39,382 nt of DNA, taken from the IMG/VR virus record IMGVR_UViG_3300048112_000053, positions 1 to 39,382 of that record; one strand, written 5' to 3'. Below are positions 1-35,881 of this stretch, piece after piece. Each line of letters begins with the position of its first letter. Positions within the stretch are counted from its first letter, which is position 1. The position numbers and the translations under genes were made by a program. The stretch is from a virus. Under the pieces are notes generated by a model. That model ran no database searches, was not told where the DNA came from, and saw only the letters and a list, made by a program, of their open reading frames with translations.

Positions 1-1595
1 CCGCCACACTAACAGAACGCATGCGCATAGACTCCTCTGGCAACGTGGGTATTGGGACGGATTCGCCTAGTGCTCCATTAGACGTAGTGTCTGCCTCAAG
101 CAGTACTGGTCTGAATATTAGAGGCAGGTCATCAGACAATATCGGGTCATTGTATTTTACTTCTAACGCAAGTGCGTCTACAGAGTATGGTTATATACAA
201 GGGCGGTCTACAGACCTAAGAATACAAGGGCTTAACAACGGTTTAATTTTAAACCCAAGTGGCGGCAACGTGGGTATTGGTACTAGTAGTCCTTCAGCTA
301 AATTAACAGTTGCTGGTGGTTCAGATATGGGTATTCGTATTATATCTGATGCTGATGGTTATGCTAGTTTGCAATTTGGAGATGTAGATGACTTTGTTCG
401 TGGTGGTATTAGTTATAACAGTGCAGATGATAGCCTACAACTAAGAGGTTACAACAACACAGAACGCCTCCGCATCGACGCCTCTGGCAATGTGTTGGTG
501 GGTAAGACTGCTACAGACAATACTACAGCAGGCACTAGAATACACCCTGCTGGTTACGCCTCATTCACAATTGCCAATGACTATCCAATAATTGCAAATC
601 GTTTAAGCTCTGACGGTGACATAGCAGTATTCCGCAAAGACGGCTCACCCGTAGGTAGTATTGGTAGTAGTTCTGGTGTTGTTTCCTATATCGTTTTAGA
701 CCCACGCACTGCATATAAAGGTGCTGGCTTGACTGGCGCTTCTTTAAGCACAAGTGTTGGCATACTAAATCCTACTGATAAAACCGGAGCAATTGCAGAC
801 AATGCAATAAATCTAGGTAATGACAGTGCAAGATTCCATGACTTCTACCTTGGTGGCGGTGTATACGCCAATAATGCCAGCGGTGCGTTTTTGTGGAATG
901 CAGAAAACGCACATATTGCTTTTGGCACAAACAACTCAGAACGCATGCGCATAGACTCATCAGGCAACCTGTTGGTTGGTAAGACTTCTGTCAGTGATTC
1001 TGTCGCAGGGGGCAGAATATCCTCCGATGGTCGGATGATTCAAGGGATAGATGGAACGGGAGCGGCTGACTTTCACGATTTTTATAGAGGGACAGTAGGT
1101 TCTTTAACTAGAGTAGGTAATATTAGGTCGTCTGGAACATCAGTTGCCTACAACACCTCATCAGACTACCGCCTCAAAGAAGATTGGCAACCTGTCGAGA
1201 ACGCAACCGATAGACTCAAAGAGTTAAAGCCATGCAACTTTGCGTGGAAAGTTGACGGTAGTCGCGTAGATGGCTTCTTAGCCCACGAACTACAGGAAGT
1301 TGTACCTGAAGCCGTAACAGGTGAAAAGGACGCAATGCAGACTGAAGAGTATGAAGTCACTCCTGCTGTCTATGAGGACGTTGTAATCCCTGCTACTGAA
1401 GAGGTATTAGACGAAGAAGGTAACTTAATCACTGAAGCCCAAGAAGAAAGCACAGAGCAACAGCTTGTCTCTGAAGCAGTCATGGGCGAGCGTGAAGTAC
1501 CTGACTATCAGGCTATTGATCAGTCTAAACTCGTACCGCTGTTGGTCGCAACCATACAAGAACTTGAAGCACGTATAAGCGCACTGGAGGCGTAA
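1..1595 (+). CDS. Long tail fibre, C-terminal part with peptidase S74 chaperone domain (5' end outside window start)
   Basis: The frame is open from base 3 and ends at TAA 1593-1595; an ATG at 21 is internal to the gene, not its start. The fibre shaft shows repeated ERMRIDSSGNVGIGT-type motifs that are common in phage fibres. From about base 1158 the motif SSDYRLKED opens a peptidase S74 (endosialidase-type intramolecular chaperone) domain, which in known fibres trimerises the fibre and is then cut off at its first Ser. The tail end (YQAIDQSKLVPLLVA, then ELEARISALEA) is the usual S74 helical end. The gene very likely continues from the ORF at the window's right end (36499 onward): if the ends are joined the frame is kept, giving a fibre of about 1490 residues. 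It is followed without a gap by a small membrane protein. The fibre would be part of the adsorption apparatus. Confidence 0.9.
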   Translation, partial: ATLTERMRIDSSGNVGIGTDSPSAPLDVVSASSSTGLNIRGRSSDNIGSLYFTSNASASTEYGYIQGRSTDLRIQGLNNGLILNPSGGNVGIGTSSPSAKLTVAGGSDMGIRIISDADGYASLQFGDVDDFVRGGISYNSADDSLQLRGYNNTERLRIDASGNVLVGKTATDNTTAGTRIHPAGYASFTIANDYPIIANRLSSDGDIAVFRKDGSPVGSIGSSSGVVSYIVLDPRTAYKGAGLTGASLSTSVGILNPTDKTGAIADNAINLGNDSARFHDFYLGGGVYANNASGAFLWNAENAHIAFGTNNSERMRIDSSGNLLVGKTSVSDSVAGGRISSDGRMIQGIDGTGAADFHDFYRGTVGSLTRVGNIRSSGTSVAYNTSSDYRLKEDWQPVENATDRLKELKPCNFAWKVDGSRVDGFLAHELQEVVPEAVTGEKDAMQTEEYEVTPAVYEDVVIPATEEVLDEEGNLITEAQEESTEQQLVSEAVMGEREVPDYQAIDQSKLVPLLVATIQELEARISALEA

Positions 1596-3230: not shown

Positions 3231-3258
3231 CCCCTATGCAAATCTAAGGAGATTGAGT

Positions 3259-3447
3259 ATGTCAGCAGGAAAAGGTTCTGCACCCCGACCTATCCCAAAC
3301 CGGGAACAATACGAAGCAAACTACGATGCCATCTTTGGTAATCAAAAAAAGAAACTCAAGTACAAAAAGTGTGGACTCTGTGGTAACTACTGGTTAGCAG
3401 AAAACCCTGGTAGAAACCACGAATGTCCATGTGATGGACCCCTATAA
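3259..3447 (+). CDS. Small Cys-rich (possible zinc-binding) hypothetical protein
   Basis: 62 residues. An upstream in-frame TTG at 3253 is possible, but ATG 3259 with AAGGAG 7 bases before it is much better. The N terminus SAGKGSAPRPIPNREQYE resembles a small protein family widespread in phages. The C-terminal half has CGLC (C38, C41) and HECPC (H54, C56, C58), enough ligands for one zinc ion. The gene has its own phage promoter (P1) and is followed by hairpins and a terminator, so it forms a one-gene transcription unit between the lysis genes and attP. Function unknown. Confidence 0.75.
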   Translation: MSAGKGSAPRPIPNREQYEANYDAIFGNQKKKLKYKKCGLCGNYWLAENPGRNHECPCDGPL

Positions 3448-3753: not shown

Positions 3754-3790
3754 TTCTACGTCAATGTCGATTGATTTCCGTGACGTAGAA
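3754..3790. repeat. Inverted repeat next to attP, candidate integrase arm sites
   Basis: TTCTACGTCA (3754-3763) and TGACGTAGAA (3781-3790) are perfect 10-base inverted copies separated by 17 bases. A further partial copy, GACGTAGA, lies at 3925-3932 on the other side of the tRNA-like core. Sites flanking a core on both sides are what tyrosine integrases use as arm-type sites; binding is inferred. The segment GATTGAT recurs beside these copies (near 3769 and 3939). Confidence 0.5.
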
Positions 3791-3815
3791 ACTATAGCTA
3801 AAACGCCTTGTAAAA

Positions 3816-3876
3816 TGGTGGGCCCAGTAGGACTTGAACCTACGACCAATCGATTATGAGTCGACTGCTCTAACCA
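3816..3876 (-). other. attP: Candidate phage attachment site attP: 3' part of a tRNA gene with anticodon CAT
   Basis: Read on the - strand this is a tRNA from the D-loop (TGGTTA) and D-stem (GAGC) to the 3' CCA. The anticodon arm is GTCGA-CTCATAA-TCGAT (anticodon CAT), the variable loop TGGTC, the T-arm GTAGG-TTCAAGT-CCTAC (perfect stem), and the acceptor strand TGGGCCC is followed by ACCA. The 5' acceptor strand GGGCCCA and the normal 5' D-arm are missing upstream, so it cannot fold as a full tRNA. Integrases of temperate phages commonly use tRNA 3' halves as core sites, and the integrase gene begins 172 bases away. The target is a host tRNA-Met or tRNA-Ile2 (lysidine-modified CAT) gene; the two cannot be separated from this part alone. 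Confidence 0.85.
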
Positions 3877-3952
3877 GAGCGACAAGCAGCTCAATGGTTT
3901 CTACAGCATTGGTCAATTGATTAAGACGTAGATTTACCGATTGATAAACGAC

Positions 3953-3975
3953 AAGCACCTCCGGGTGCTTTTTTT
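3953..3975 (+). terminator. Rho-independent terminator upstream of int (first of two)
   Basis: AAGCACC (3953-3959), loop TCCG, GGTGCTT (3964-3970), with a T-run through 3975. It terminates + transcripts that have crossed attP. Confidence 0.88.
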
Positions 3976-3977
3976 AT

Positions 3978-4002
3978 GGGCCCCCGAAAGGGCCTTTTTT
4001 TT
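3978..4002 (+). terminator. Rho-independent terminator upstream of int (second of two)
   Basis: GGCCC (3979-3983), loop CCGAAA, GGGCC (3990-3994), followed by eight T. Two terminators in tandem insulate the integrase gene from read-through, so int must have its own start signal between 4003 and 4047; none stands out beyond TTATAT at 4031. Confidence 0.85.
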
Positions 4003-4047
4003 AAAACCTAAAGCAGCCTTGATGCTGCACTTATATAGGAGAACGAA

Positions 4048-4893
4048 ATGGAAACTTTAAATAGTTTTTTTGAGAAGTACGGCAGGAGGCTATGGCATGA
4101 CAAATACCTTAGTGACTGCCAGTTCATGGTTAACCGTCTAAGCAGTTTTAGCGACAACCATAGTAAACCCATTGGTGCATACACGGATGACGACATATAC
4201 GCCTTTATGGACCACCTCGAAGACCAGGGACTGAAAGACAACACTATCAACCGATACTTGGCAGCCTACTCTAAGCTCTTTAAGAAAGCAGCTAAGAAAA
4301 AGCTGATTGAGATAGTCCCTTCTGTCGAATGGAAGCCTGTCGGCAACGGCAGGAAACGATACTTTTCTGCTAAGGAGATTCAAGACTTGATTGAGTTTTT
4401 CTTGGATAGCGAACATCCCTGGATGGCAAACTTTGTCGTTTTAGGGGAGCAGACAGGTATGCGCTTAGGCGAGATTCTAGCGATTAACAACCTTAAGTCT
4501 AAAAAAACCCAGGGCAACTTAAGTGACTGTGGCTCATTTGTTGAGCTGACAGAAACTAAAAATGGTGAGCAACGCACAGTGCCTCTAACAGATGAAGCAC
4601 AAGAAGCTTTAGCCAGGCTAGACAACTGCCCGGCTGACTATCATTCACACCGCACTTTCTATGACACATGGGACCTTGCACGAGAGTGTATTGCACCCGG
4701 TGATGAGGACTTTGTGTTTCATGTGTTGAGACACACATGTGCTACCAGGTTAGCAATGGAGTTTGGTGTGGATACCCTGGTCGTTGGCAGCATCTTAGGA
4801 CACAAGTCTATTGCGACAACTAAGAAGTATGTGCAGAAAGACCGCCAGGCAATGCAAGCGGTAGTCAACAAACTAAAAAGGAGGGCAGCATGA
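4048..4893 (+). CDS. int: Tyrosine-family site-specific integrase
   Basis: 281 residues. The N-terminal half (about 1-95) is a SAM-like core-binding domain with a YTDDDIYAFMDHLED segment. The catalytic domain shows all expected residues: R139 (TGMRLGEIL), K171 in the beta-hairpin (TETKNGEQRTVPL), H225-V-L-R228-H, H252 (ILGHKS) and nucleophile Y261 (TTKKYV). It would integrate the phage at the tRNA-derived attP just upstream. The start has AGGAGA 9 bases before the ATG. A small hairpin (GCAGC/GCTGC, 4012-4027) lies in its short leader. It overlaps the next gene by ATGA. Integrases next to the RNA polymerase gene are known in temperate T7-like phages such as some pelagiphages. Confidence 0.96.
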   Translation: METLNSFFEKYGRRLWHDKYLSDCQFMVNRLSSFSDNHSKPIGAYTDDDIYAFMDHLEDQGLKDNTINRYLAAYSKLFKKAAKKKLIEIVPSVEWKPVGNGRKRYFSAKEIQDLIEFFLDSEHPWMANFVVLGEQTGMRLGEILAINNLKSKKTQGNLSDCGSFVELTETKNGEQRTVPLTDEAQEALARLDNCPADYHSHRTFYDTWDLARECIAPGDEDFVFHVLRHTCATRLAMEFGVDTLVVGSILGHKSIATTKKYVQKDRQAMQAVVNKLKRRAA

Positions 4894-5583: not shown

Positions 5584-5709
5584 ATGAACATGAACATGGA
5601 CATGAAACATAGTAATTACCAAGAGTTGGTGGTCTTGAGTTGCCATCAAATGACAGACGAAATGCTCTGGTGGGCAAGTGATTATTTAGGAGGGCAATGC
5701 AATGGATAA
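5584..5709 (+). CDS. 41-codon small ORF preceding RNA polymerase
   Basis: Begins MNMNMDMK, with four ATG codons in the first seven positions, and ends at TAA 5707-5709, overlapping the RNA polymerase start (5702) by 8 bases in another frame. GAGGGA lies 8-12 bases upstream of the first ATG. The rest is NYQELVVLSCHQMTDEMLWW and a short tail. The stop/start overlap suggests translational coupling to the polymerase. No family is recognised; it may be a true microprotein or a regulatory leader. Confidence 0.55.
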   Translation: MNMNMDMKHSNYQELVVLSCHQMTDEMLWWASDYLGGQCNG

Positions 5710-8317
5710 TGCGACAGACCTATTGACCCAACAAGTTATTCGAGAAGACAAAATGTTTTCTGACGGCTTAAAACGATACACCAATCGTCAATTGCAAAAC
5801 AAACGTCCTTCTACTTCTGATACACCTCACTACTTAGTCACTAACTCACTACCTTTAGTATCTGAAGGTATGCAAGAGTGGTTGATGTACCAAAAGAATC
5901 TGGGAGGAAGACGACAAGATGCCTACTCTATACTTTCAACTTTAGATTGCGACCTAATAGCTTACATAGGTCTCAATACATGTATGGATGGTACAGCTTC
6001 AGGAGGCACTAGGACTGCCGTCATAACGAACATAGGTAAGCGAATAGAACTGGAGATTTGGGCAGCAGGTCTAAAAGACTTCAATCCCAAGATTGCAAAG
6101 AAAATCGAAAGTCACAAGAGTGTCAAAGAGCAAAGCGTACACTACTACAAAGTAAGGGCTCTTAAGAAAGTTGCCAAAAGGTATGAGTATGACGTTGAGC
6201 CTTGGTCCGATAGTCTTGTCTGCCATGTAGGCTCTCGTGTACTGAGTGTCGTTCTTGACAGGTCACAACTCTTTGAAGACTGGACTAAGAACACAACAAA
6301 AAAGACTACTAAGATGGTAGGTCTGACAGATGAGGCTAGTCAGCGATTAGCCGACCTTGATGTGAAGGCTGCCTGGCAAGAGCCAATGTTGAGCCCGATG
6401 ATTATGCCGCCAAAAGACTATGAAGATTTTGACACTGGGTGCTACCACTCAGCGGTGGCAGCAGCAATGGTACCTCTAGTACGTCAAGCAGGTTATGCTC
6501 AGAAAAAGGCAATCAAACACGACATAGCTAAAGCGAAGGCTAAAGGTGAAATCCCTGAGTACATGGAGGCTTTGAACATTCTCCAGTCCACTCCTTTAAC
6601 AATCAATGCTTATGTGAAAGACGCTGTGAAGTGGTGTTGGGACAATGGTTATACCAGTGATTTAAAAGCCAAAGCTATCAAAAAGTTCCCGGTGAAAGAA
6701 ATGTTGAAATTTAAGTCTCGACCTGAGAACTACAATGACCTTAGTCTTGCCGATCAAATTCTACACAAGCAGGACAACAATAAGATTCGTGCCAAGAACC
6801 TGGAAGTCAAAGGTGGTATTGCACTGATGTCTCAAGACCTGAGTACAGCAGATGAGATAGCCACTTATGACCAGTTTTATATTCCTTGGAACTTGGACTT
6901 CAGAGGCAGAGTCTACCCAGTGTCTAACTTCAGCTATCACAGAGATGACCATATCAAAGCGATGTTTTTACTGAAGAACACTAAGGCAATGGATGACGAT
7001 GCTGCCTTCTGGTTGGCGGTCCACATTGCCAACAACGGTGACTTTAACAGAGTTTCTAAAAAGTCTTTTGAAGCTAGAGCCGAATGGGTTGAGCGAAGAA
7101 AGATGCTCATTTATGCAATCGGTAGAGACTTTAAAAAGACTTACCGCATATGGTCTAAAGCTGACAAGCCATTTCAGTTTCTTGCAGCTTGTCATGAGTT
7201 TGCTAACTATATGGATTACGGCAATGAGTACCACTGTGGTCTACCCATTGGATTAGACGCAAGCTGCTCTGGGATTCAACACTACGCTGCTGCTTCTTTA
7301 GCTGAGAGCGATGGAGCCCAGGTCAATTTAGTTCCTGCAGCCGAACCCCAGGACATTTATGCTGCGGTAGCTGAAGTGTCTCGCACGATGGTACTTGAGG
7401 TTCTAAAGTCATATGTACCCCAAGATAAAATCAGCAAAGAGACAGGCAAGCTTGTTAAGGACAACACGCTGCTCTATGCAGCAGCTTGGCTCAAGATGGG
7501 TATAACCAGGGACAAGTGTAAGCGTAATGTTATGACGTTTGGATACAGCTCAAGCAAGTACGGTATGGGTATACAACTCTATGACGACTTCATGAAACCT
7601 CTAGAAGATTTGGTGATGCGAGGTGTCATTGACGTTCATCCATTTGGTGACACAGAGTACTCACAGAAGGCTGCTGCCCATTTTCTTGCAGACATTAACT
7701 ACAATGCTGTACGCCAGGTAACAAGTAGTTCTGCTGTTGGGATGAAGTTCTTTCAACGCCTAGTGGGTGAGTTGGCCCACGAAGGTAAACATCTACGTTT
7801 CAACAACCCGGTAGGTTTTCCGATGGTGCAAAACTACACCTTCTGGGATACAAAAAAGGTAGTTGTCTACATGTTTGATAGGGCAGCTGAGGTGGAAAAG
7901 CGTACGTCTATTAGTATTCGTCATCCACGACCCATTGATGCAGCAAAAAGAAGCAAAAGAAGTATCGTTGACAAGAAGAAGTCTAAAAGTTCTATTGCTC
8001 CTAATGTCATACACTCGATGGACTCAGCGCATTTACTCAAGACTGTCATCAAAGCAAAACGAGAGGGAGTAGTTGACTTCTTTTTGATACATGACAGCTT
8101 TGCAACTGTGCCTACTGATACTGATGCGATGTATCAGACGGTCCGTTCGACCTTTGTCGATTTGTACAAAGATTACTGCTTGTACAGTGACTTCAAGTCA
8201 CAAGTTCTAGATGTTCTCAGTGATGCAGGTATAGAACGACTGCAGGGTGTTGAGATACCTCCAAAAGGTACACTGGATATTACCCAGGTCCTGGATTCAG
8301 AATACTGTTTTTCTTAA
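5702..8317 (+). CDS. T7-type single-subunit DNA-directed RNA polymerase
   Basis: 871 residues (T7 gp1 has 883), with AGGAGG before the ATG. The palm motifs are intact: motif A D519 in LDASCSGIQHY, motif B K607 to Y615 in KCKRNVMTFGY, and motif C D798 in IHDSFATVP. These correspond to T7 D537, K631/Y639 and D812. The segment NLDFRGRVYPVSNFSYH is also typical. It transcribes the phage genome from the five promoters described here and makes middle and late transcription independent of the host polymerase. It is preceded by one of its own promoters (P3) and followed at once by P4, whose first base is the last base of the stop codon. Confidence 0.98.
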   Translation: MDNATDLLTQQVIREDKMFSDGLKRYTNRQLQNKRPSTSDTPHYLVTNSLPLVSEGMQEWLMYQKNLGGRRQDAYSILSTLDCDLIAYIGLNTCMDGTASGGTRTAVITNIGKRIELEIWAAGLKDFNPKIAKKIESHKSVKEQSVHYYKVRALKKVAKRYEYDVEPWSDSLVCHVGSRVLSVVLDRSQLFEDWTKNTTKKTTKMVGLTDEASQRLADLDVKAAWQEPMLSPMIMPPKDYEDFDTGCYHSAVAAAMVPLVRQAGYAQKKAIKHDIAKAKAKGEIPEYMEALNILQSTPLTINAYVKDAVKWCWDNGYTSDLKAKAIKKFPVKEMLKFKSRPENYNDLSLADQILHKQDNNKIRAKNLEVKGGIALMSQDLSTADEIATYDQFYIPWNLDFRGRVYPVSNFSYHRDDHIKAMFLLKNTKAMDDDAAFWLAVHIANNGDFNRVSKKSFEARAEWVERRKMLIYAIGRDFKKTYRIWSKADKPFQFLAACHEFANYMDYGNEYHCGLPIGLDASCSGIQHYAAASLAESDGAQVNLVPAAEPQDIYAAVAEVSRTMVLEVLKSYVPQDKISKETGKLVKDNTLLYAAAWLKMGITRDKCKRNVMTFGYSSSKYGMGIQLYDDFMKPLEDLVMRGVIDVHPFGDTEYSQKAAAHFLADINYNAVRQVTSSSAVGMKFFQRLVGELAHEGKHLRFNNPVGFPMVQNYTFWDTKKVVVYMFDRAAEVEKRTSISIRHPRPIDAAKRSKRSIVDKKKSKSSIAPNVIHSMDSAHLLKTVIKAKREGVVDFFLIHDSFATVPTDTDAMYQTVRSTFVDLYKDYCLYSDFKSQVLDVLSDAGIERLQGVEIPPKGTLDITQVLDSEYCFS

Positions 8318-8339
8318 GTTCTGTCGTCCTCTTAGAGAC
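8317..8339 (+). promoter_or_regulatory. Phage RNA polymerase promoter P4
   Basis: AGTTCTGTCGTCCTCTTAGAGA is identical to P1 over the core and the following ten bases, except that the second base is G instead of C. It drives the SSB-to-DUF3310 replication operon. Confidence 0.85.
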
Positions 8340-8410
8340 CTATAGCTCAATCTAGGCTAGATCGAAAAATTTACTTACTACTATAACCATGAAAAAAAGG
8401 AGAAGACCCT

Positions 8411-8956
8411 ATGGCTCAAGTAAAACGAGTCCCATTCAATAGTGGCTCAGGCCGAGCGCAATATCCCTGGTTAAACGAACCAGACACTGCCTTTGGTAAT
8501 GACCCACGCTACAAAACCAATCTAATAGCAGACGATGCTTCTGCGCTTATTGCAAAGATTGAGGCTCTAGCTGAAGAAGAATTTGGCAACGACTGGAAAA
8601 AGGTGCGAATGCCTTTCGTCAGAGATGAAGACACTGGCGAAGTGATACTCAAAACGAAGTCTAAATATGCACCACTCTTCTATGATTCCACAGGTTCTGA
8701 TCTGGTGGGCCAACAGGTACCGAAACTGTGGGGCGGCTCTGTCATCAAGATAGGTGGATACATGGTGCCTTATACCGTGAGCGGTTCTAAAGGTATCTCA
8801 CTACAACTTACCAAAATCCAGGTTATTAACCCGGTGTCTTCTGGTGAGAAGAAAGATGGTGGATTTGAGGCTGTTGAGGGCGGCTATGTTGCAGATGACA
8901 TAATGCAGGAAGCTTTCGACAATGACGAAGAGACGACCACCGCAGACCGCTTCTAG
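8411..8956 (+). CDS. Single-stranded DNA-binding protein, T7 gp2.5-like
   Basis: 181 residues (T7 gp2.5 has 232). The start has AAGGAG 8 bases upstream. The body is beta-rich, as expected of an OB fold, with FYDSTGSDLVG and KIGGYMVPY segments. The C terminus is strongly acidic and ends in an aromatic residue (FDNDEETTTADRF), the feature by which gp2.5 contacts the polymerase and primase-helicase. First gene of the replication operon after P4; its 3' end overlaps endonuclease I by 35 bases, the same order as T7 genes 2.5 and 3. Confidence 0.88.
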   Translation: MAQVKRVPFNSGSGRAQYPWLNEPDTAFGNDPRYKTNLIADDASALIAKIEALAEEEFGNDWKKVRMPFVRDEDTGEVILKTKSKYAPLFYDSTGSDLVGQQVPKLWGGSVIKIGGYMVPYTVSGSKGISLQLTKIQVINPVSSGEKKDGGFEAVEGGYVADDIMQEAFDNDEETTTADRF

Positions 8957-9350
8957 TAGAAGACAACGCGGAATAAAGCACGGCTATCGAAGTGGTCTCG
9001 AAGATAAAGCAGCTGCACAGATTAAAGCAGCAGGACTAGAGCTTCTCTATGAGACCGACAAGATTAGCTATGTAGTACCACAGAGCAATCACAAGTACAC
9101 ACCGGATTTTAAGCTGCCTAAGAAGGGTGGCTTTTTTTATGTCGAGACAAAGGGTATCTGGGATACGAAGGACAGACAGAAGCACGTCTTGATTCGTGAG
9201 CAATACCCAGACCTGGACATCCGGTTTGTATTTAGTAATTGCAATTCAAAACTCTACAAGGGGTCGAAAACGACATATGCATCCTTCTGCGATAAGCAGG
9301 GGTTTGTTTATGCCCACAAAACGATTCCTGATGAGTGGCTACGAGAGTAG
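8922..9350 (+). CDS. Endonuclease I (Holliday junction resolvase), T7 gp3-like
   Basis: 142 residues (T7 gp3 has 149). Catalytic residues line up with T7 E20, D55, E65 and K67: E27 (RSGLEDKAA), D62 (YTPDFKLP), E75 and K77 (YVETKGIWD). The enzyme resolves branched DNA and degrades host DNA during replication. The start lies inside the SSB gene, and the 15-25 residue basic N terminus (KRRPPQ, RRQRG) is partly encoded by the overlap. A terminator follows. Confidence 0.95.
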   Translation: MTKRRPPQTASSRRQRGIKHGYRSGLEDKAAAQIKAAGLELLYETDKISYVVPQSNHKYTPDFKLPKKGGFFYVETKGIWDTKDRQKHVLIREQYPDLDIRFVFSNCNSKLYKGSKTTYASFCDKQGFVYAHKTIPDEWLRE

Positions 9351-9363
9351 TTAAGGAGAGCTA

Positions 9364-9399
9364 AGGGTCATCCTCAGAAATGGGGGTGGCCCTTTTTTT
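9364..9399 (+). terminator. Rho-independent terminator between endonuclease I and primase-helicase
   Basis: AGGGTCA (9364-9370) pairs with TGGCCCT (9387-9393), one G-U, and is followed by a run of T through 9399. The 16-base loop is long, so termination may be partial. It lies inside an apparent N-terminal extension of the next reading frame, which argues that translation starts after it. Confidence 0.7.
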
Positions 9400-9418
9400 C
9401 GTTTGTGAGGGAAACCAA

Positions 9419-11032
9419 ATGTTAGCACCAACCACCGACCACAATGATTCTGAGTTCGTTATGCATGTGAGCTGCGAGTCATGTGGTTCCAAAGACAATG
9501 CTGCCATCTATGATGACGGTCACACCTATTGCTTTGGTTGCCAACTTTACACACCAGATGATTCAGTTGAAGTTGTTGCAGCCACCAAACCAAAAAAACT
9601 ACACAAAGATTTAATCCAGGGCACATACAGTGACTTGGTTGCCAGAGGTATTCGTGAAGACACCTGTCGAAAGTTTGACTACCAGGTAGGAGAGTACCAG
9701 GGCAGGGCAGTACAGATTGAGAACTACCGGGATGACAACGGTGAAATCAGAGTCCAAAAGACAAGAGACCAAGACAAGAACTTTACGGTCCTGGGTGACT
9801 CTAGTCACATGTGTCTTTTCGGGCAGCATTTGTGGACTACAGGTAAAAAACTCGTTGTTACAGAAGGGGCCATAGACTGCCTCTCAGTGTCTCAGGCACA
9901 AGGCAACAAGTGGCCTGTAGTGTCAGTCCCAAATGGAGCGCAATCAGCTAAGAAAGCCCTTATGAAAGCCTGGGACTTCTTAAATGGCTTTGAAGAAATC
10001 ATCTTGATGATGGACGGAGATGAGCCAGGCCAAAAGGCTGCATTAGAGTGCGCTGAGAGCCTTCCGGTTGGCAAATGTAAGATAGCCAAGCTTAGTGGTT
10101 ACAAAGACCCTAACGAGGCTCTACAGGCAGGAGGTGAGGCTGAAATAGTCAATGCCATATGGAGGGCGAAGGACTGGAGACCTGACGGCATTATCTCAAC
10201 TAAAGAGCTGAGAAGTATTGTCACAGAGACTGATGAACACTCTACGATTACTTATCCATACCCTCGACTGAATGAAATCACAAAAGGTATCCGACCATCT
10301 ACCCTGGTTACAATTTGTGCCGGGAGTGGCGTAGGTAAATCCACGTTAGTTACTGAGTTTGCATACCATCTGCACAAGTCTGAGCAACGCGTTGGAATGC
10401 TCATGTTAGAGGAGAACAACAAGCGTACTGTGAGGGGTCTCACTGGCCTCCACATCAACAAAAACATCGTCCAGGACCATGAGGCTGCAACGAAAGAAGA
10501 GGTCTTAGAAGCGTATGACGACCTGTTTAAAACGCAAGAGATTCAGCTGTTAGATTCTGGTGGCAGCCATAGTTTACCCATTGTGATTAACCGCATTCAG
10601 TACATGGCAAAAGCGATGGGATGTACCCATGTGTTTTTAGACCATTTGTCACTAGTCATAAGTTCCATGACCGGAAAGGTCACAGATGAAAGACGACTGA
10701 TTGATGACGCAATGACTCAATTGAGAACGATGGTCCAGGAGTTAGGCATAACACTGTTCCTGGTTAGCCACCTTACTCGTCCCCAGGGTAAAGGACATGA
10801 GGCAGGAGGAAAGGTGGAGCTTTCACAATTGAGAGGTTCACACGCGATTGCCCAATTAGCAGACCAATGTATTGGTCTCCAAATGGACGCTGAAGACCCT
10901 ACCAATGACTGCCGTGATTTAGTTGTTTTAAAGAACAGGTTTACTGGTCAAGTAGGTTGGGCAGGAAGACTACAGTATCACCGCGAATCAGGACGGCTCA
11001 TCGATGCCGATTCTGGTGACTCTCGCTTTTAA
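9419..11032 (+). CDS. Primase-helicase, T7 gp4A-like
   Basis: 537 residues from ATG 9419. The frame is open to an ATG at 9380, but that codon lies in the terminator hairpin. With 9419 the zinc ligands fall at C19, C22, C38 and C41, almost exactly the T7 positions (17, 20, 36, 39). The TOPRIM primase domain has E149 (VTEGAIDCLS) and D199/D201 (MMDGDEPGQ). The hexameric helicase domain has Walker A GSGVGKST (K307), Walker B THVFLDHLSL and motif QLRGSHAIAQLADQ. It unwinds DNA and primes lagging-strand synthesis. GAGG lies 9-12 bases upstream. Confidence 0.97.
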   Translation: MLAPTTDHNDSEFVMHVSCESCGSKDNAAIYDDGHTYCFGCQLYTPDDSVEVVAATKPKKLHKDLIQGTYSDLVARGIREDTCRKFDYQVGEYQGRAVQIENYRDDNGEIRVQKTRDQDKNFTVLGDSSHMCLFGQHLWTTGKKLVVTEGAIDCLSVSQAQGNKWPVVSVPNGAQSAKKALMKAWDFLNGFEEIILMMDGDEPGQKAALECAESLPVGKCKIAKLSGYKDPNEALQAGGEAEIVNAIWRAKDWRPDGIISTKELRSIVTETDEHSTITYPYPRLNEITKGIRPSTLVTICAGSGVGKSTLVTEFAYHLHKSEQRVGMLMLEENNKRTVRGLTGLHINKNIVQDHEAATKEEVLEAYDDLFKTQEIQLLDSGGSHSLPIVINRIQYMAKAMGCTHVFLDHLSLVISSMTGKVTDERRLIDDAMTQLRTMVQELGITLFLVSHLTRPQGKGHEAGGKVELSQLRGSHAIAQLADQCIGLQMDAEDPTNDCRDLVVLKNRFTGQVGWAGRLQYHRESGRLIDADSGDSRF

Positions 11033-11059
11033 TAAATCGACAAACCAAGGAGACATACA

Positions 11060-11314
11060 ATGTCACAGAAGCACGATTTACTTTCATACCTTCAAGAAGG
11101 TCACTCAATTACCTCTCTGGATGCCATTAGACATATGGGCATCACTCGTATCTCATCAATTATTCATAAGCTAAAGGCTGACGGTCACAACATAGTACGT
11201 TCAGATGTTGCTGTCGTTGACCGCCAAGGCAAAAAGAAGACTATAGGTAAATGGTGGCTGCACGGTCAGGAGCCTAACTTAGATTATGTGCAGCAGATAG
11301 AGATGCAGGTATGA
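11060..11314 (+). CDS. Small helix-turn-helix protein (HTH_39-like)
   Basis: 84 residues with AAGGAG 9 bases upstream. Residues 14-50 (HSITSLDAIRHMGITRISS, then IIHKLKADGHNIV) have the spacing of a winged helix-turn-helix, of the kind annotated HTH_39 in many phages, and the C-terminal GKWWLHG fits the wing region. It overlaps the DNA polymerase gene by ATGA. It could regulate transcription or assist replication; position inside the replication operon does not decide between these. Confidence 0.75.
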   Translation: MSQKHDLLSYLQEGHSITSLDAIRHMGITRISSIIHKLKADGHNIVRSDVAVVDRQGKKKTIGKWWLHGQEPNLDYVQQIEMQV

Positions 11315-13104
11315 GCCTGGTGTTTGACCTTGAGAGTAACGGTCTGCTCAAGGAACTAGACACAATTCACTGTATAGCAATTCTCGATACAGCAAGTGAG
11401 GACAGAAGAGTTAATGCTCTATCTATTTACTCTGGTCCTGATGGCATCAAAGAAGCCCTGGACCTACTTGCTGCAGCCGATGAAATCATAGGTCACAACG
11501 TCATTGGTTTTGACATCCCGGCAATACAAAAGGTTTATCCAGACTGGCAGCCAAAAGGCAAAGTGACAGACACACTTGTCATTAGTCGACTGGTCGCTGC
11601 TGACTTAATGAATGACGATGCAACCTCCCTTGGACTCCCTGATGACTTTAAGAAACGGATGTGGGGCAGTCACGCATTGAAAGCCTGGGGCCTACGAATG
11701 GGCACAATGAAAGGCGATTACGATGGAGGATGGGAGACCTGTAACCCGGAGATGCTTGAGTATTGTAAGCAAGACGTAGTTGTCACTTACAAGCTGTACA
11801 AGAAGCTGATGCAGATGGCTAAAGGTTTCTCTGAGCAGTCACTTGAGTTAGAACATGAGTTAGCTGAGATTTGCTACAGAGTTGGCAACAATGGGTGGAC
11901 GTTTGATGTTAAAGCAGCAGAGAGTTTATACGCTGATTTAGCTACCACCAGGATAGAGCTTGAGAAGGACTTAAATAAGCTGTTTGAGCCCTGGGAGATA
12001 CATACTGAGTTCATACCTAAAGCTAACAACAAGACTCGTGGATACGTCAAAGGAGAGCCGTTTACGAAGGTTAAGGTCGTTGAGTTCAATCCTAACTCTC
12101 GCAAGCACATTCACTATTGCCTAGTTAAAAAGTATGGGTGGAAGCCTAAGTCATTCACCCCCAGTGGTGATGCTAAGGTAGACGAGACTGTGTTGTCTAA
12201 GCTGCCATACCCAGAAGCTAGAAAACTAGCGAAATTCATGTTGGTACAAAAGAGAATCGCTCAGTTGGCCGAGGGTAGTCAAGCCTGGCTTAAGATGGTA
12301 GACACTGACGGCAAGCTCCGTCATACCATTATCTCTGGTGGCACTGTGTCAGGTAGAGCAAGCCATCGTAACCCTAACGTGGCCCAGACGGTTTCTGCTA
12401 GGGCAGCCTACGGTAAACCTATGAGAGAGTTATTCACTGTGCCCAACGGATGGCACCTCTGTGGTGGCGACTTAAGTCAATTGGAGCTTAGGTGTTTAGC
12501 CTATTTTCTTGATGATGGCGGTGAGTATGCCAAGCAAATCATGGAAGGAGACATTCATACCTTTAACCAGAAGGCAGCAGGTTTACCTACCAGGGATGCA
12601 GCCAAGACTTTCATCTATGCCACTACTTATGGGGGTGGAGACACTCTTATCGGCAAGCTAGTCGGTGGCTCTTCAAAAGATGGTAGGAGACTTAAGTCAG
12701 AGTTTGACAAGAATATACCTAGTTTTAAATCACTGAAGAGTGAACTTAATCAAGCATATAAGCGCGGATACCTCAAAGGTTTGGACGGCAGAAAGCTGTT
12801 CGTTAGGTCAGAGCATAAATGCCTTTCACAACTACTCCAGTCAGCAGGTGCCCTTCTTTGTAAGAAGTGGTTAGCCCTGGTTGACCAGGAGATTACAAGA
12901 CAACAACTACAGAACGATGCACTCATCTTGGCATGGGTACATGACGAACTGCAGATTGCTTGTAGAACCAAAGAGGTAGCAAACAATGTCGGTGACATAC
13001 TTATCCGAATGGCTAAAGAAGCAGGAGAACATTTCAGAATCTCAGAAAAACTCCCTATCGAAGCAGAGTTCAGCGTGGGACGTACCTGGTGCGAAACACA
13101 CTGA
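11311..13104 (+). CDS. Family A DNA polymerase with 3'-5' exonuclease, T7 gp5-like
   Basis: 597 residues (T7 gp5 has 704). Exonuclease motifs: D6/E8 (VFDLESNGLL), D68 (GHNVIGFDIPA) and Y151/D155 (YCKQDVVVTY). Polymerase motifs: A with D387 (GGDLSQLELR), B RDAAKTFIYATTYGGG, and C with H544-D545-E546 (AWVHDELQIA). The protein replicates the phage genome with the primase-helicase and SSB encoded upstream. The roughly 100-residue shortfall against T7 may mean that the thioredoxin-binding loop of the thumb is absent, but this was not aligned. The 3' end overlaps the next frame by 119 bases. Confidence 0.97.
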   Translation: MSLVFDLESNGLLKELDTIHCIAILDTASEDRRVNALSIYSGPDGIKEALDLLAAADEIIGHNVIGFDIPAIQKVYPDWQPKGKVTDTLVISRLVAADLMNDDATSLGLPDDFKKRMWGSHALKAWGLRMGTMKGDYDGGWETCNPEMLEYCKQDVVVTYKLYKKLMQMAKGFSEQSLELEHELAEICYRVGNNGWTFDVKAAESLYADLATTRIELEKDLNKLFEPWEIHTEFIPKANNKTRGYVKGEPFTKVKVVEFNPNSRKHIHYCLVKKYGWKPKSFTPSGDAKVDETVLSKLPYPEARKLAKFMLVQKRIAQLAEGSQAWLKMVDTDGKLRHTIISGGTVSGRASHRNPNVAQTVSARAAYGKPMRELFTVPNGWHLCGGDLSQLELRCLAYFLDDGGEYAKQIMEGDIHTFNQKAAGLPTRDAAKTFIYATTYGGGDTLIGKLVGGSSKDGRRLKSEFDKNIPSFKSLKSELNQAYKRGYLKGLDGRKLFVRSEHKCLSQLLQSAGALLCKKWLALVDQEITRQQLQNDALILAWVHDELQIACRTKEVANNVGDILIRMAKEAGEHFRISEKLPIEAEFSVGRTWCETH

Positions 13105-13354
13105 GGATGACTTCACGAACGATGTCGAGCAGCTGATTGCATTTTGGGCAGTCCTAGATAAAGCCGAACGTGAAGGGTTTACAGTCAAGAGTGGTTTCGC
13201 CAGAAAAGGTGCCTGGCATGTTGCTGTCCTGGCAAGTGGTGGACTCATAACAACTGAGATTGATATTGATGTCTTTGGACGTTACTGGCTAATCACTGAT
13301 GAAGGTCATGACTTTAAGGAGGCACTTGATGAACGTATTAAAGAGCTTCTCTAG
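12986..13354 (+). CDS. Hypothetical protein overlapping the 3' end of the DNA polymerase gene
   Basis: 122 residues from ATG 12986, preceded by GAGGT 8 bases upstream. No later ATG, GTG or TTG was seen before the protein-like region begins (about residue 38), so the long overlap with the polymerase is probably real. Residues 45-122 look like a compact alpha/beta domain (QLIAFWAVLDKAEREGF, ARKGAWHVAVLASGG, RYWLITDEGHDF). Family not recognised. It overlaps the exonuclease start by 26 bases. Confidence 0.65.
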   Translation: MSVTYLSEWLKKQENISESQKNSLSKQSSAWDVPGAKHTEDDFTNDVEQLIAFWAVLDKAEREGFTVKSGFARKGAWHVAVLASGGLITTEIDIDVFGRYWLITDEGHDFKEALDERIKELL

Positions 13355-14087
13355 TGACAAAACCACGCTGCTTATCGATGGTGACTTGTATCTTTACCAG
13401 GCAGCTGCAGCATCTGAGTCTGAAACAGACTGGGGAGACGATATATGGTCCCTCACCTGTGACGTAGGTGCTGCCAAGAAGATGTTTAACAGTCGTCTTG
13501 AGACTTTCAAAGAACGCCTAGATTCAGACGAAATTCTTGTTTGTTTCACGGTAGGTGAAAACTTTAGAAAGACTGTGCTGCCAGATTATAAAGGTGGACG
13601 AAAGAAGACCAGGAAACCAGTCGGTTATAAGTACCTGGTAGGTTGGGCTCAGGAAAACTATCCCTGCCATGTCCAAGACACCCTGGAAGCTGATGACATC
13701 ATGGGCATCCTCCAGTCATCCAAGACTCATCCAACTTGCATTGTGTCTGATGATAAGGACATGAAAACAATACCAGGCAAACTCTATAGACCTATGGCTG
13801 ATGAGCTGCTGCACATCAAAGATGCAGAGGCTAACTATTACTTCTTTACGCAGTGTCTTACCGGAGATGTCACAGATGGCTATAAGGGCCTACCTGGGAC
13901 TGGTCCAAAGAAAGCTGAAGGTATCTTAGGTAACCACCCAAGTTGGGACCAGGTTGCCCAGGCATACATTAAAGCAGGGTTAACCAGGGAGGATGCAATA
14001 GCCCAGAGTCGCTGTGCCAGGATACTTAGGAGCTGCGATTGGAACTGGGATACAGAGACGATAAACATGTGGGAGCCAGGACGATGA
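13329..14087 (+). CDS. 5'-3' exonuclease, T7 gp6-like (FEN/PIN fold)
   Basis: 252 residues from ATG 13329, chosen because AAGGAGG lies 8 bases before it; the longer frame from 13299 has no such site. Conserved acids: D17 and D19 (LLIDGDLY), the EADDIMGIL motif and VSDDKDMKTIPGKL. A helix-3-turn-helix region follows (GLPGTGPKKAEGILG). In T7 this enzyme removes RNA primers and helps to degrade host DNA for nucleotide reuse. Position after the polymerase matches T7 gene order (5 then 6). Confidence 0.93.
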   Translation: MNVLKSFSSDKTTLLIDGDLYLYQAAAASESETDWGDDIWSLTCDVGAAKKMFNSRLETFKERLDSDEILVCFTVGENFRKTVLPDYKGGRKKTRKPVGYKYLVGWAQENYPCHVQDTLEADDIMGILQSSKTHPTCIVSDDKDMKTIPGKLYRPMADELLHIKDAEANYYFFTQCLTGDVTDGYKGLPGTGPKKAEGILGNHPSWDQVAQAYIKAGLTREDAIAQSRCARILRSCDWNWDTETINMWEPGR

Positions 14088-14293
14088 TAGTACACAAGGT
14101 ATCTTCATTGACTGGTGTACTACACAGTCGAGACATCGATGTCACTGGTAAACAACTGACCCGACATGCCGAAGGTGAGCTGATACAAAATGTGTGTCCA
14201 GACCTTAGTGCAGAGGACCGGGAGTTTCTGATGACCGGAATTACCCAGGACGAGTGGCAGCGGTTTGCTGCTTGTCAGGAATGCGAGGTGTAA
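14084..14293 (+). CDS. Conserved phage hypothetical protein
   Basis: 69 residues from ATG 14084, which overlaps the exonuclease stop codon; the longer frame from 14039 runs within the exonuclease gene and is less likely. The pattern GELIQNV, then LSAEDREFLMTGITQDEWQRF, is one I recall in small proteins of marine phages of this type, where it ends in an ITPEEW-like motif. Acidic, no membrane segment. Function unknown. Confidence 0.65.
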   Translation: MIVHKVSSLTGVLHSRDIDVTGKQLTRHAEGELIQNVCPDLSAEDREFLMTGITQDEWQRFAACQECEV

Positions 14294-14297
14294 ACAA

Positions 14298-14534
14298 ATG
14301 ATATTAACTTGGAGAGAGAACCTGCAGCTGACTAAGCCAAGGAAGCTAATGCAGGAAACCCAGAGTACAGAGACTTGTACTAATTACTATGCAGGTCTTG
14401 AGGACGGCATCCAATACAAGCCAAGACGACACACAACTCATCGTGAACTCTATAGAGAAAACATGGCTAGGACTAACGGTATCAACAATCTAAATATAAA
14501 AGATAGGATTCTATATAAAGGAGACAACTCATGA
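14298..14534 (+). CDS. Hypothetical protein
   Basis: 78 residues from ATG 14298; the upstream ATG at 14265 in the same frame lies in the preceding gene. The protein is basic and polar (TKPRKLMQETQ, YKPRRHTTHRELYREN) with no recognisable domain. It has ATGA coupling to the next gene. No strong ribosome binding site precedes it, so translation probably depends on the upstream gene, which stops 5 bases before. Confidence 0.5.
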   Translation: MILTWRENLQLTKPRKLMQETQSTETCTNYYAGLEDGIQYKPRRHTTHRELYRENMARTNGINNLNIKDRILYKGDNS

Positions 14535-14731
14535 ACTCATTGATGAACGGTAGTGTAGCTGCAACTAACAATGATTTACATACGTTAGGACGTACGGTTG
14601 ATAAAGAAAGAGCTAACTGTAAAGCACTAATAAAAAAACTTGAGGCAGCTGAAGGTGCATTGGACAGAGCCTTACATGCCTATCATATTGAATTGAGAAG
14701 CCATTACACAGCAGATAAGGAGGTGAACTAA
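14531..14731 (+). CDS. Small helical hypothetical protein
   Basis: 66 residues with AGGAG 9 bases upstream. Residues 20-60 are predicted to form one long charged helix (DKERANCKALIKKLEAAEGA and onward). It overlaps the previous gene by ATGA and the next ATG by one base. Function unknown. Confidence 0.6.
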   Translation: MNSLMNGSVAATNNDLHTLGRTVDKERANCKALIKKLEAAEGALDRALHAYHIELRSHYTADKEVN

Positions 14732-14898
14732 TGGACCTTTTACTTAGTGTATTAATGGCTATATTTGCTACTCTTTTTGTTGCTGCAAGTACTCTCTATA
14801 TCTTTGCGATACTGTTCGAGGGTGTCTTTGGATACAGCTTTGGAGAAGAAAAAGAAGATAAGAAGAAGAAGAAGGAGGATACCTCAAATGAACACTAA
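14731..14898 (+). CDS. Small single-span membrane protein
   Basis: 55 residues. AAGGAGG lies 8 bases upstream of ATG 14731. Residues 2-28 form one hydrophobic segment (LLLSVLMAIFATLFVAASTL), followed by a short linker and a very charged tail (GEEKEDKKKKKED). The preceding stop codon shares its last A with the ATG, so translation is coupled. A similar frame reported on the same DNA from 14765 is a shadow; this frame has the ribosome binding site and membrane-protein composition. Role unknown; an early membrane-acting protein is possible. Confidence 0.7.
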   Translation: MDLLLSVLMAIFATLFVAASTLYIFAILFEGVFGYSFGEEKEDKKKKKEDTSNEH

Positions 14899-15262
14899 CA
14901 ATAGTAGAAGACTCAACGATGTACTTCCTGAAGAGTGGGATAGGATAGCCAAGGAAATACCTGCAATAGACAAGGTGTCACATGTCTACGAAAGGTTAGC
15001 TGAAGAAGAAGCTAAAGATATGGTTAACAGTCCAGACCACTACACTACAGCTAGTGGAATAGAATGTATTGCTGCCATTGAAGCATCCATGACACCTGAA
15101 GCATTCAAAGGTTACTGCAAAGGTAATGCACTAAAGTATCTCTGGAGATACGAGAAGAAGTCAAAGGATAAGTCAGTAGAGGATTTACGTAAGAGCCAGT
15201 GGTACCTGAGCAGACTCATTGATACAAGTGTTAGTAAAAGTACGGTGAGTAGTCCTAATTAA
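14888..15262 (+). CDS. DUF3310 protein (T7 gp1.7-like nucleotide kinase family)
   Basis: 124 residues from ATG 14888, with AGGAGG about 10 bases upstream, located inside the end of the membrane-protein gene. The DUF3310 core is clear: VNSPDHYTTASGIECIAAIE, then YCKGNALKYLWRYEKKSKD and LRKSQWYLSRLID. T7 gp1.7 carries this domain and has nucleotide kinase activity affecting dideoxythymidine sensitivity. A role in nucleotide supply is inferred from that. Last gene of the P4 operon. Confidence 0.88.
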   Translation: MNTNNSRRLNDVLPEEWDRIAKEIPAIDKVSHVYERLAEEEAKDMVNSPDHYTTASGIECIAAIEASMTPEAFKGYCKGNALKYLWRYEKKSKDKSVEDLRKSQWYLSRLIDTSVSKSTVSSPN

Positions 15263-28858: not shown

Positions 28859-29134
28859 ATGAAAGTGAGAGCATATGACCTGGTCAACATTTTGAGCCAG
28901 GTAGACCTAGTTAAATCCTCAAAACTACTGTCCCAAGAACAAAAGCAGCTTGTATTCAAAGACATGCTGTCTGACCTTCCTATGGACATGTTTTGTAGCA
29001 GCTTTAAGAACACCAGGGCTGCAGTTACTGAGGTTTTACACAAGGAAATAAAAAGTCATGAAAAAGCAAAGAGTCCAAAGAAAAAAGCTACCCCCAAAGC
29101 CAAAAGTGATGCCCCAAAAGGCTCCAAAAAATAA
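28859..29134 (+). CDS. Hypothetical protein with Lys-rich tail
   Basis: 91 residues with AAGGAA 8 bases upstream. The N-terminal 65 residues look helical (LSQVDLVKSSKLLSQEQKQ, then FKDMLSDLPMDMF). The last 25 residues are lysine-rich (KSPKKKATPKAKSDAPKGSK) and probably disordered and nucleic-acid binding. Its last 77 bases overlap the terminase small subunit candidate. It may be packaged with DNA or assist packaging; unproven. Confidence 0.6.
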   Translation: MKVRAYDLVNILSQVDLVKSSKLLSQEQKQLVFKDMLSDLPMDMFCSSFKNTRAAVTEVLHKEIKSHEKAKSPKKKATPKAKSDAPKGSKK

Positions 29135-29570
29135 TTACTTTGCAAACTTAATGTCAACCCCAGAGGGAAGGGCACTTAGAAAAGAATGGTCCACTAAACC
29201 TCGAAAGAACCCTGGTAGGCCGATGGGTGTTCCTGATGGGCATACAAAAGAAACAATTGCCCCAATTCGAGCACAAGCCAAAAAAGACGCAATAAAGGTA
29301 GTCAAAATTATGTCAGATAAATACAACATCGAAGACGAGTATCAAAAAGAAGCTCTTACCACCGCAGTCGAAGTTATGCGCTTGGACGGACAGTCCAGAG
29401 AACGATTGGCAGCTGCCAGGTTAGTCCTGGATTTTACTAAGAGTAAACCTGCGACTAAGTCGGATGTAAGCATTAGCCGGGCTGAAGACTTCCTGGCATC
29501 CCTTTTAACTGAAGAAGAGAGCAATGATGGACAAGCAGCTGAAGGAAATACGGAAGAGACTGCTAACTGA
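29058..29570 (+). CDS. terS: Terminase small subunit candidate
   Basis: 170 residues. The N terminus is very basic (KKQRVQRKKLPPKPK) and the middle contains helices with a pattern seen in small terminases (EALTTAVEVMRLDGQSRERL, then AAARLVLDFTKSKP). The C terminus is acidic and overlaps the large subunit gene by 47 bases. Small terminases recognise the packaging site and often precede terL in this way. The identification is by position and general composition rather than a strict motif. AAGGA lies 11 bases before ATG 29058; a later ATG at 29109 lacks one. Confidence 0.6.
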   Translation: MKKQRVQRKKLPPKPKVMPQKAPKNNYFANLMSTPEGRALRKEWSTKPRKNPGRPMGVPDGHTKETIAPIRAQAKKDAIKVVKIMSDKYNIEDEYQKEALTTAVEVMRLDGQSRERLAAARLVLDFTKSKPATKSDVSISRAEDFLASLLTEEESNDGQAAEGNTEETAN

Positions 29571-31098
29571 TTTTAATTTTTACTCCAAGTCTGCCCTCAA
29601 GATAAGAACTAAAGAAGGCAAAATAAAACCCCTCAAGTTAAATGCTGCACAGACAATACTTAACAAAGCTGTTGAAGACCAATTGTCTACCGAAGGTAAA
29701 ATACGCATTATTATTCTTAAAGCTAGGCAGCAGGGCCTTAGTACCTACACTGGTGGATACCTTTACTATTCAGTAAGTCAGCAAGCAGCTCGAAAAGCTA
29801 TGGTCATTACACACCATGCCGATTCGACCAGGGCTCTCTTTGATATGACCAAGAGATTCCACGAACACTGTCCAGATATTTTGAAACCACACACTAAGTA
29901 TAGTTCTCGAAGGGAGATTAGTTTTGATGTTCTTGATTCATCTTTTGTGGTTGCAACGGCAGGTGGTGAAAGCATTGGTCGTGGTGAAACACTCACTCAC
30001 GTCCACGCTTCAGAACTTGCGTTCTGGCAGAAGTCCACGGCACTCGACAACTGGAATGGATTGGTACAAGCAGTTCCTAACTCCCCAGGTACTGCAATTT
30101 TTGTCGAAAGCACGGCAAATGGCGTTAACGGTATATTTTACGATTTATGGCGTGGTGCTGTTGATGGTACTAATGGCTATATACCTGTCTTCATTCCTTG
30201 GTTTACTGATGATTCGTACCGGGAGAAAGTTACAGATAGTTTTGAAAGGACTCCTGAAGAAGAAGACCTAGTAGAAAAATATGACCTGGAAGACGAGCAG
30301 CTCATGTTCAGAAGACGTAAGGTTGCTCAGAACGGCTTAGATTTATGGAACCAGGAGTATCCTGCGACTCCAGAAGATGCCTGGTTAACTACAGGTCGTC
30401 CTGTGTTTAATCCCCAACAGCTTGTTGAGCAATTAGATGACACCAGGGACCTGGAGTCTCGTCTTGCCCTAGAAGGTGACGACTTTGAGAACAACCATCG
30501 TGGTGAGCTATTTACATTTAGACCTCATGTCCCTGGTGAGCAGTATGTCATTGGAGCTGATGTTGCTATGGGTGTCCGTAATGGTGATTACTCAGTAGCT
30601 CAAATCCTGGACTCAAAGAAGCGACAAGTAGCAATCTGGCGAGGTCATGTTCACCCAGATTACTTTGCTACTGTCTTATTTAAGTTAGGAGAGTATTACA
30701 ACACTGCCCATATCTGTGTTGAAAACAACAGTCATGGAATTCTAACCTGTACCAGGCTAGGCAAGGACATGGCATACCCTAATTTTTACACTGAAATACA
30801 GCACGACAAAGTGACGGATAGAGAGACTGTAAAACTAGGTTTCTCCACCACAGCTAAAACTAAACCCTTAATCATTGACCAACTCAGAGCAGCCATGCGT
30901 GAAAACGAGTTGGAGCTTAATGACAAAGTCACAATCCGAGAAATGCTTTCATACATCGTCACTGAATCTGGTGCGATGCAAGCCGAATCTGGCTGTTTTG
31001 ATGATTGCGTGATGTCCCTGGCACTAGCTAATTATGTACACCAGGGTGCTTGGGACCCAATTGAATCAACAGATAACTACTACATTGAGATGGTATAA
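29524..31098 (+). CDS. terL: Terminase large subunit
   Basis: 524 residues. ATPase motifs: Walker A-like ILKARQQGLST (about 64-74) and a Walker B-like LTHVHASELAFW region. The nuclease domain shows GADVAMGVRNGDYSVAQI with its Asp, CVENNSHGI, and FDDCVMSLALA near the end. The KARQQGLST form is found in terminases of phages unlike T7 (T7 gp19 is different in sequence and 586 residues long). It drives DNA into the head and cuts it. ATG 29524 is immediately followed by a second ATG. It precedes the portal gene by 2 bases. Confidence 0.92.
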   Translation: MMDKQLKEIRKRLLTDFNFYSKSALKIRTKEGKIKPLKLNAAQTILNKAVEDQLSTEGKIRIIILKARQQGLSTYTGGYLYYSVSQQAARKAMVITHHADSTRALFDMTKRFHEHCPDILKPHTKYSSRREISFDVLDSSFVVATAGGESIGRGETLTHVHASELAFWQKSTALDNWNGLVQAVPNSPGTAIFVESTANGVNGIFYDLWRGAVDGTNGYIPVFIPWFTDDSYREKVTDSFERTPEEEDLVEKYDLEDEQLMFRRRKVAQNGLDLWNQEYPATPEDAWLTTGRPVFNPQQLVEQLDDTRDLESRLALEGDDFENNHRGELFTFRPHVPGEQYVIGADVAMGVRNGDYSVAQILDSKKRQVAIWRGHVHPDYFATVLFKLGEYYNTAHICVENNSHGILTCTRLGKDMAYPNFYTEIQHDKVTDRETVKLGFSTTAKTKPLIIDQLRAAMRENELELNDKVTIREMLSYIVTESGAMQAESGCFDDCVMSLALANYVHQGAWDPIESTDNYYIEMV

Positions 31099-31100
31099 AA

Positions 31101-33134: not shown

Positions 33135-33178
33135 TGTTTTACCCCCTAACTTGTTGTTCTTAAAGGAGAGCAAAAGAT

Positions 33179-33460: not shown

Positions 33461-33466
33461 GCGACC

Positions 33467-34519: not shown

Positions 34520-34560
34520 TGCTCATTTAATCTCAATTTTTTAATAAAAAGGAAAATATC

Positions 34561-35442: not shown

Positions 35443-35474
35443 GTTCTATAGATAGCTAGTATTTTGTAGTACTT

Positions 35475-35538: not shown

Positions 35539-35559
35539 TATTTATCAAAGGAGAAGCCA

Positions 35560-35877: not shown

Positions 35878-35881
35878 ACCT

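Follow-up and report, generated by a model that had tools for sequence, protein, structure and literature searches.

A tRNA-Ile2 fragment as probable attP of an uncultured podophage with a T7-type RNA polymerase, and its varying extent among relatives

Phages that combine T7-like genes with an integrase have been described in several bacterial groups. The T7-like cyanophages P-SSP7 and S-TIP37 possess T7-like RNA polymerase and replication genes, an integrase and an attP derived from a host tRNA gene; such phages integrate and form no lysogens, and no stable prophages are reported (PMC8776855). In the integrase-bearing T7-like pelagiphages (HTVC019P, HTVC201P and others) and in the T7-like Pseudomonas phage LUZ100, the integrase is encoded close to where the early region begins. 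LUZ100 shows temperate features (PMC10134795) and, together with vB_PaeM-G11, also T7-like, is reported as temperate-featured or lysogenic (PMC10134795, PMC10142737). Outside phages, the subsite A islands of the Islander collection, with crossover in the anticodon loop, associate a tRNA fragment with an integrase and with restoration of the target (PMC4383910). In the Islander collection, 3760 of 3919 islands are of the 3′-fragment type and 159 of 3919 of the 5′-fragment type (PMC4383910); for bacteria, the 5′ type is said to be a rare sight (PMC8371274). With pTN3-like archaeal integrases the element provides the 5′ half, so that the restored tRNA has to be transcribed from the element (PMC8371274). 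A limited set of search terms retrieved no paper on integrase-bearing phages of the SAR92 or OM60 clades.

We analysed a stretch of 39,382 nucleotides of viral DNA, called the window below. It had initially been annotated as a T7-type phage, which holds for one part of the genome only: the RNA polymerase is of T7 type, the DNA polymerase is T7-like (about 45% identical to those of the Roseobacter CRP phages), and the primase-helicase is assigned to the T7 type from its place among the genes and its motifs. A T7-type portal and capsid, on the other hand, were not found, as portal, capsid and adaptor are of the SU10/LUZ24/phiEco32 type, and no recognisably T7-type (Autographiviridae) phage was present among the matches listed for the portal. 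The genome therefore appears to be a hybrid, in which T7-type RNA polymerase and replication genes (5702-15262) are joined to a SU10/LUZ24-type head module (29058-36484). Because the tail-fibre frame runs off the right end (36499-39382) and resumes in frame at 1-1595, with CCC as the junction codon, the contig is probably a complete 39-kb genome, circularly permuted or circularised, without end repeat. Coordinates are collected in Table 1.

Table 1. Features of the window, and tRNA pieces found in relatives (numbered by tRNA position)
Feature	Positions	Strand	Basis or remark
Small conserved ORF, far-side border of the attP region in relatives	3253-3447	+	
Outer inverted-repeat arm, with GACGTAGA	3755-3774	+	partner 3913-3932
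Inverted repeat around the core, left arm GTAGAAACTAT	3785-3795	+	partner 3894-3904
tRNA-Ile2(CAT) 3′ fragment, tRNA positions 17-77 (D-loop to CCA)	3816-3876	-	attP identity segment; exact match inside complete host tRNA genes
Anticodon stem-loop TCGA-CTCATAA-TCGA, inferred core-type sites around a 7-nt overlap	3850-3864 (loop 3854-3860)	-	relatives
C matching hosts with C at tRNA position 16	3877	-	host alignment
Inverted repeat, right arm ATGGTTTCTAC	3894-3904	+	partner 3785-3795
Outer inverted-repeat arm	3913-3932	+	partner 3755-3774
Terminator-like hairpin, attP-integrase gap	3953-3970	+	
Second terminator-like hairpin, T run after	3978-3995	+	
Tyrosine integrase, 281 aa, two-domain (SAM-like + catalytic)	4048-4893	+	Pfam, PHROG, catalytic residues
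Single-subunit T7-type RNA polymerase	5702-8317	+	PF00940, 2e-78
SU10/LUZ24-type portal	31101-33134	+	PF23899, 3.2e-180
SU10-type major capsid protein	34561-35442	+	PF17236, 3.2e-68
Class A (3′ part)	window 16-77; L084 27-77; L085 9-77; L183, L186, L187 17-77; L188-L193 ~21-77; L199		
Class B (5′ only)	1-53: L090, L092, L093, L099, L195-L198, L202, L204, L205		
Class B (5′ only), shorter or longer	1-48: L208, L210, L211; 1-55: L209; ~1-43 of a variant tRNA: L212		
Class C (whole gene)	L075, L076, L079, L082, L083, L088		
L078	4-77		orientation opposite relative to integrase

The window differs from each of the described systems. The attP of P-SSP7 and S-TIP37 matches a host tRNA-Leu, in another host phylum (PMC8776855), and their likeness to the window stops at its SU10/LUZ24-like head module and at its relatives, which have 5′, 3′ and full-length versions of the tRNA. 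The same virion module separates the window from the pelagiphages and LUZ100, to which it is moreover distant in sequence and different in host. Conversely, the LUZ24/phiEco32/SU10 podoviruses, a lineage abundant in ocean metagenomes, share its portal, major capsid and adaptor families (PMC10386132), and the window adds to these a T7-type RNA polymerase, replication genes and an integrase. Compared to the Islander islands, it is of the common 3′-fragment type, whereas its relatives also use the rare 5′ type with related integrases and the same tRNA. The 5′ type resembles the pTN3-like arrangement, but occurs here in a bacterial phage, with 5′ and 3′ types in one integrase group and on an unrelated replicon.

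The segment next to the integrase (minus strand, 61 nt: TGGTTAGAGCAGTCGACTCATAATCGATTGGTCGTAGGTTCAAGTCCTACTGGGCCCACCA) is the 3′ tRNA fragment that the initial annotation had described, as confirmed by its sequence, by Rfam (41.2 bits, with the acceptor pairs marked broken or unpaired) and by host tRNA genes. Both arms had been called perfect: the T-arm is perfectly paired (GTAGG/CCTAC), and the anticodon arm is complete (GTCGA/TCGAT, loop CTCATAA, anticodon CAT) but includes one G-U pair. The 3′ acceptor strand, TGGGCCC, is indeed without a 5′ partner, the bases upstream of the fragment being gagctgcttgtcgct in the window against GGGCCCATAGCTCAG in hosts. A full tRNA fold was looked for with ARAGORN, which accepted no tRNA in the window; no complete tRNA is encoded there, and the fragment does not form the complete cloverleaf with paired acceptor stem of a functional phage tRNA.

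The search for bacterial tRNA genes containing the exact 61-mer, proposed with the initial annotation, was run and returned 73 genome loci, nearly all in Halieaceae or Porticoccaceae, which excludes a chance match. A complete tRNA surrounds the 61-mer in all but three of them, namely a second copy in L027, L036 (altered acceptor bases) and L068 (cut by the contig end). Within complete tRNA genes, the 61-mer was present in 33 of 110 Porticoccaceae (SAR92) and 31 of 140 Halieaceae genomes, and it occurred in only 1 of 368 further genomes sampled from the Gammaproteobacteria. Either tRNA-Met or tRNA-Ile2 had been predicted as target from the CAT anticodon; the E. coli genes closest to the full host gene are annotated tRNA-Ile, and since the anticodon is CAT, we retain tRNA-Ile2. 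For hosts carrying the AGC-TGG allele, the match reaches 62 nt rather than 61, through the C at base 3877. This C, at tRNA position 16, is mostly the Porticoccaceae form among the loci inspected, and may give a mild preference for SAR92 over OM60. As anticipated, the sequence identifies the host lineage: the host is most likely a member of the Porticoccaceae (SAR92 clade), otherwise of the Halieaceae (OM60/NOR5). A near-DNA search of phages gave matches only to tRNA genes of other phages.

Two observations concern the host loci themselves. In about 10 of the 73 (L009, L014, L015, L019, L020, L025, L034, L044, L056, L068), a contig end lies at most 45 bases from the tRNA-Ile2 gene, as if a sequence sharing the tRNA, phage or prophage, had broken the assembly. 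In a Luminiphilus genome (L027:636-5260), the same tRNA-Ile2 core, repeated directly over 66 bp, encloses a 4.5-kb element that has a different integrase; another integrase thus appears to use the same attB.

The integrase matches PF00589 (6.8e-19) and, over residues 6-91, PF13102, and its PHROG assignment is integrase. All catalytic residues are present, as first noted: R139, K171, H225-x-x-R228, H252 and Y261 are invariant across the protein and ten relatives. Its nearest solved chains are Int, XerA and XerD. A structure model of the protein had modest confidence (mean pLDDT 66). No separate arm-binding domain was recognised, the SAM-like domain starting at residue 6. Patterns made from the single sequence retrieved no close relatives, and a profile search found many; the nearest pelagiphage and LUZ100 integrases are about 31-35% identical to it and, like it, are encoded early in the early region. 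The gene adjoins the fragment as annotated, with a gap of 171 bases, not 172.

Given the exact match to host tRNA genes and the intact integrase, which both support the earlier proposal of an attP core at this place, segment 3816-3876 is very probably recombined by this integrase with the tRNA-Ile2(CAT) gene of a marine gammaproteobacterium. Strand exchange would most likely occur in the 7-nt anticodon loop, CTCATAA, between TCGA half-sites, which is the form of tyrosine-integrase core sites at anticodon loops (PMC8371274, PMC4383910). The anticodon stem-loop is present in every tRNA-Ile2 attP of the relatives, whether they carry the 3′ or the 5′ part (L212 holding a variant tRNA). The host would keep its promoter and 5′ half, the phage would supply an identical 3′ half, and the displaced host 3′ half would go to the integrase end. 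Because it carries an exact copy of the tRNA 3′ end, the phage could insert with the host tRNA still working; junctions built in silico have a complete tRNA at attL, and none at attR or attP. Several points count against this reading: on integration the integrase gene would lie at the junction opposite to that with the restored tRNA, which differs from the usual arrangement, and, as described below, the searches revealed neither an intact prophage of the group nor a recognisable repressor.

Repeats surround the core. The GTAGAAACTAT/ATGGTTTCTAC inverted repeat of the window is not significant alone (26 of 200 shuffles were equally good), but the homologous arms in relatives of its subgroup (for instance L084 and L188) outdo 200 of 200 shuffles; these significant repeats lie at the same place, centred on tRNA position 48.5-49.5. 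In addition to the outer arm, GACGTAGA is found at 3782-3789. It has 7 sites in the window, 3 of them within 3755-3932, for 0.6 expected in the whole window. The small ORF on the far side gave no family match.

Metagenomic relatives with related integrases (52-65% identical) carry at the same place a piece of the same tRNA gene, of varying extent (Table 1). Those with closely related integrases share the gene order endolysin, small ORF, tRNA piece, integrase, RNA polymerase, and all close relatives with enough sequence between small ORF and integrase have a piece of tRNA-Ile2 or, in a few, of another tRNA. The anticodon stem-loop region is common to all pieces. With a class B attP, the tRNA is rebuilt on paper from the phage 5′ and host 3′ halves; as the 5′ half then comes from the phage, the restored tRNA would be under a phage promoter. 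A scan of 110 bases upstream for sigma-70-like promoters was uninformative, such promoters being mostly absent for 5′-type tRNAs and likewise for most host genes. No second copy of the missing tRNA half was found elsewhere in the 5′- or 3′-type contigs. In L095 (8544-9373), a frameshift or a sequencing error interrupts the integrase frame around residues 167-170. Phages further removed, whose integrases are still related (L214, L215, L219, L223, L237), have pieces of tRNA genes other than tRNA-Ile2 (Phe, Lys, Thr-like, another CAT); in most cases the piece is the 3′ part and sense to the integrase.

In the integrase tree, the clade of the window has 3′ pieces in all labelled rows, and 5′ pieces fall in separate clades. 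A single clade of 5′-type attPs was rejected with a p-AU of 2.4e-7, a value that is indicative only, the attP-type labels having been named after the data were seen. L084 and L085, each from its own metagenome, share 99.9% identity over 15,528 bases. Of the differences within 8.3 kb of sequence around the site, 13 fall in L084:2475-2490 and one lies elsewhere. Positions 9-26 of the host tRNA, present in L085, are replaced in L084 by an unrelated stretch of the same length, in register over 18 nt, and the 5′ boundary of the tRNA copy thus differs within a species. An assembly chimera in L085 is unlikely, as there is no shared stretch between the phage flank and host position 9 through which the two could have been joined. 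The subclade formed by L084, L085, L183, L186 and L187 has a tRNA allele with GC at 27-28 and C at 45. We had considered these letters as phage mutations, with a patch in L085, and rejected this, the host allele having the same letters; the L085 piece is one continuous copy of positions 9-77. The C45 form exists in 5 of 108 Porticoccaceae and 0 of 140 Halieaceae genomes, and the four host loci that were read had all three subclade differences. Since these differences are those of a Porticoccaceae tRNA allele, the phage copies follow host alleles. Across the group at large, the phage tRNA copy would be repeatedly renewed from the host gene, its extent shifting around a fixed anticodon core. We give an even chance to the proposal that the tRNA piece of attP is an exchangeable patch: in-register copying from the host around integration would switch a phage between a 3′ half, a 5′ half placed behind a phage promoter, and the complete gene, L084/L085 being one step. 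Copying may proceed by heteroduplex repair at the Holliday junction, or by phage recombination with the host gene.

Could the fragment simply be what is left of a phage tRNA gene once useful for translation or counter-defence, and lie near the integrase by coincidence? Sister phages (L075-L083, L088, L095) do have a full-length tRNA at the same place, and CAT tRNAs are genuine tRNA genes in other phages. Decay would nevertheless hardly leave the retained part letter-perfect with respect to host genes, nor would it truncate certain phages' copies at the 5′ end and those of others at the 3′ end while always sparing the anticodon core; moreover, the copies track host alleles, and one relative has the piece inverted. 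We regard this origin as very improbable. The full-length tRNA-Ile2 of class C, together with the tRNA-Ile2 phages that figure in PMC10865867, might also evoke a tRNA-dependent lysogeny, in which the host tRNA is destroyed on integration and replaced by that of the phage. This is hardly credible for the window: it offers no complete tRNA as a replacement, its attP shares 61 nt with attB, not about 10, and one of the in-silico junctions regains a complete tRNA.

A different question, which refines the attP reading rather than competes with it, is whether the phage is essentially lytic, its functional attP serving integration during infection without stable lysogeny. The phage had initially been called temperate, and this is not established. 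No intact prophage of the group was found in 50 attB-bearing, 140 Halieaceae, 112 Porticoccaceae and 294 order-level genomes (sets that partly overlap), searches of the host families giving a few integrase matches, all short of an intact prophage; no repressor was recognised among the small ORFs near the integrase; and P-SSP7 and S-TIP37 provide a precedent (PMC8776855). The reported temperate features or lysogeny of LUZ100 and vB_PaeM-G11 point the other way, and so does the perfect state of the tRNA copy, which implies selection on surviving integrants. Also on this side, a decayed element lies in a Porticoccaceae genome (G252, L260:1980-10153), at a site different from tRNA-Ile2; its integrase shows 36% identity to that of the window, and its truncated T7-type primase-helicase 51%. 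From the ORFs, we take the neighbours of this element to be rpiA and ilvA. Some relative has thus probably integrated, though not at tRNA-Ile2, in a member of the predicted host family. Altogether, an essentially lytic life is a real possibility, to which we give a little less than an even chance, and stable lysogeny, considered apart from attP function, is about even.

If segment 3816-3876 is the attP core, as we think very probable, its 61-nt identity would tie an uncultured podophage group to abundant coastal bacteria (SAR92/OM60). Its relatives form a natural series (3′, 5′, whole, inverted) around one fixed anticodon core. How phages acquire and alter the tRNA portion of an attachment site has been called unclear (PMC10865867); this may now be studied within a single integrase group, down to pairs of almost identical genomes.
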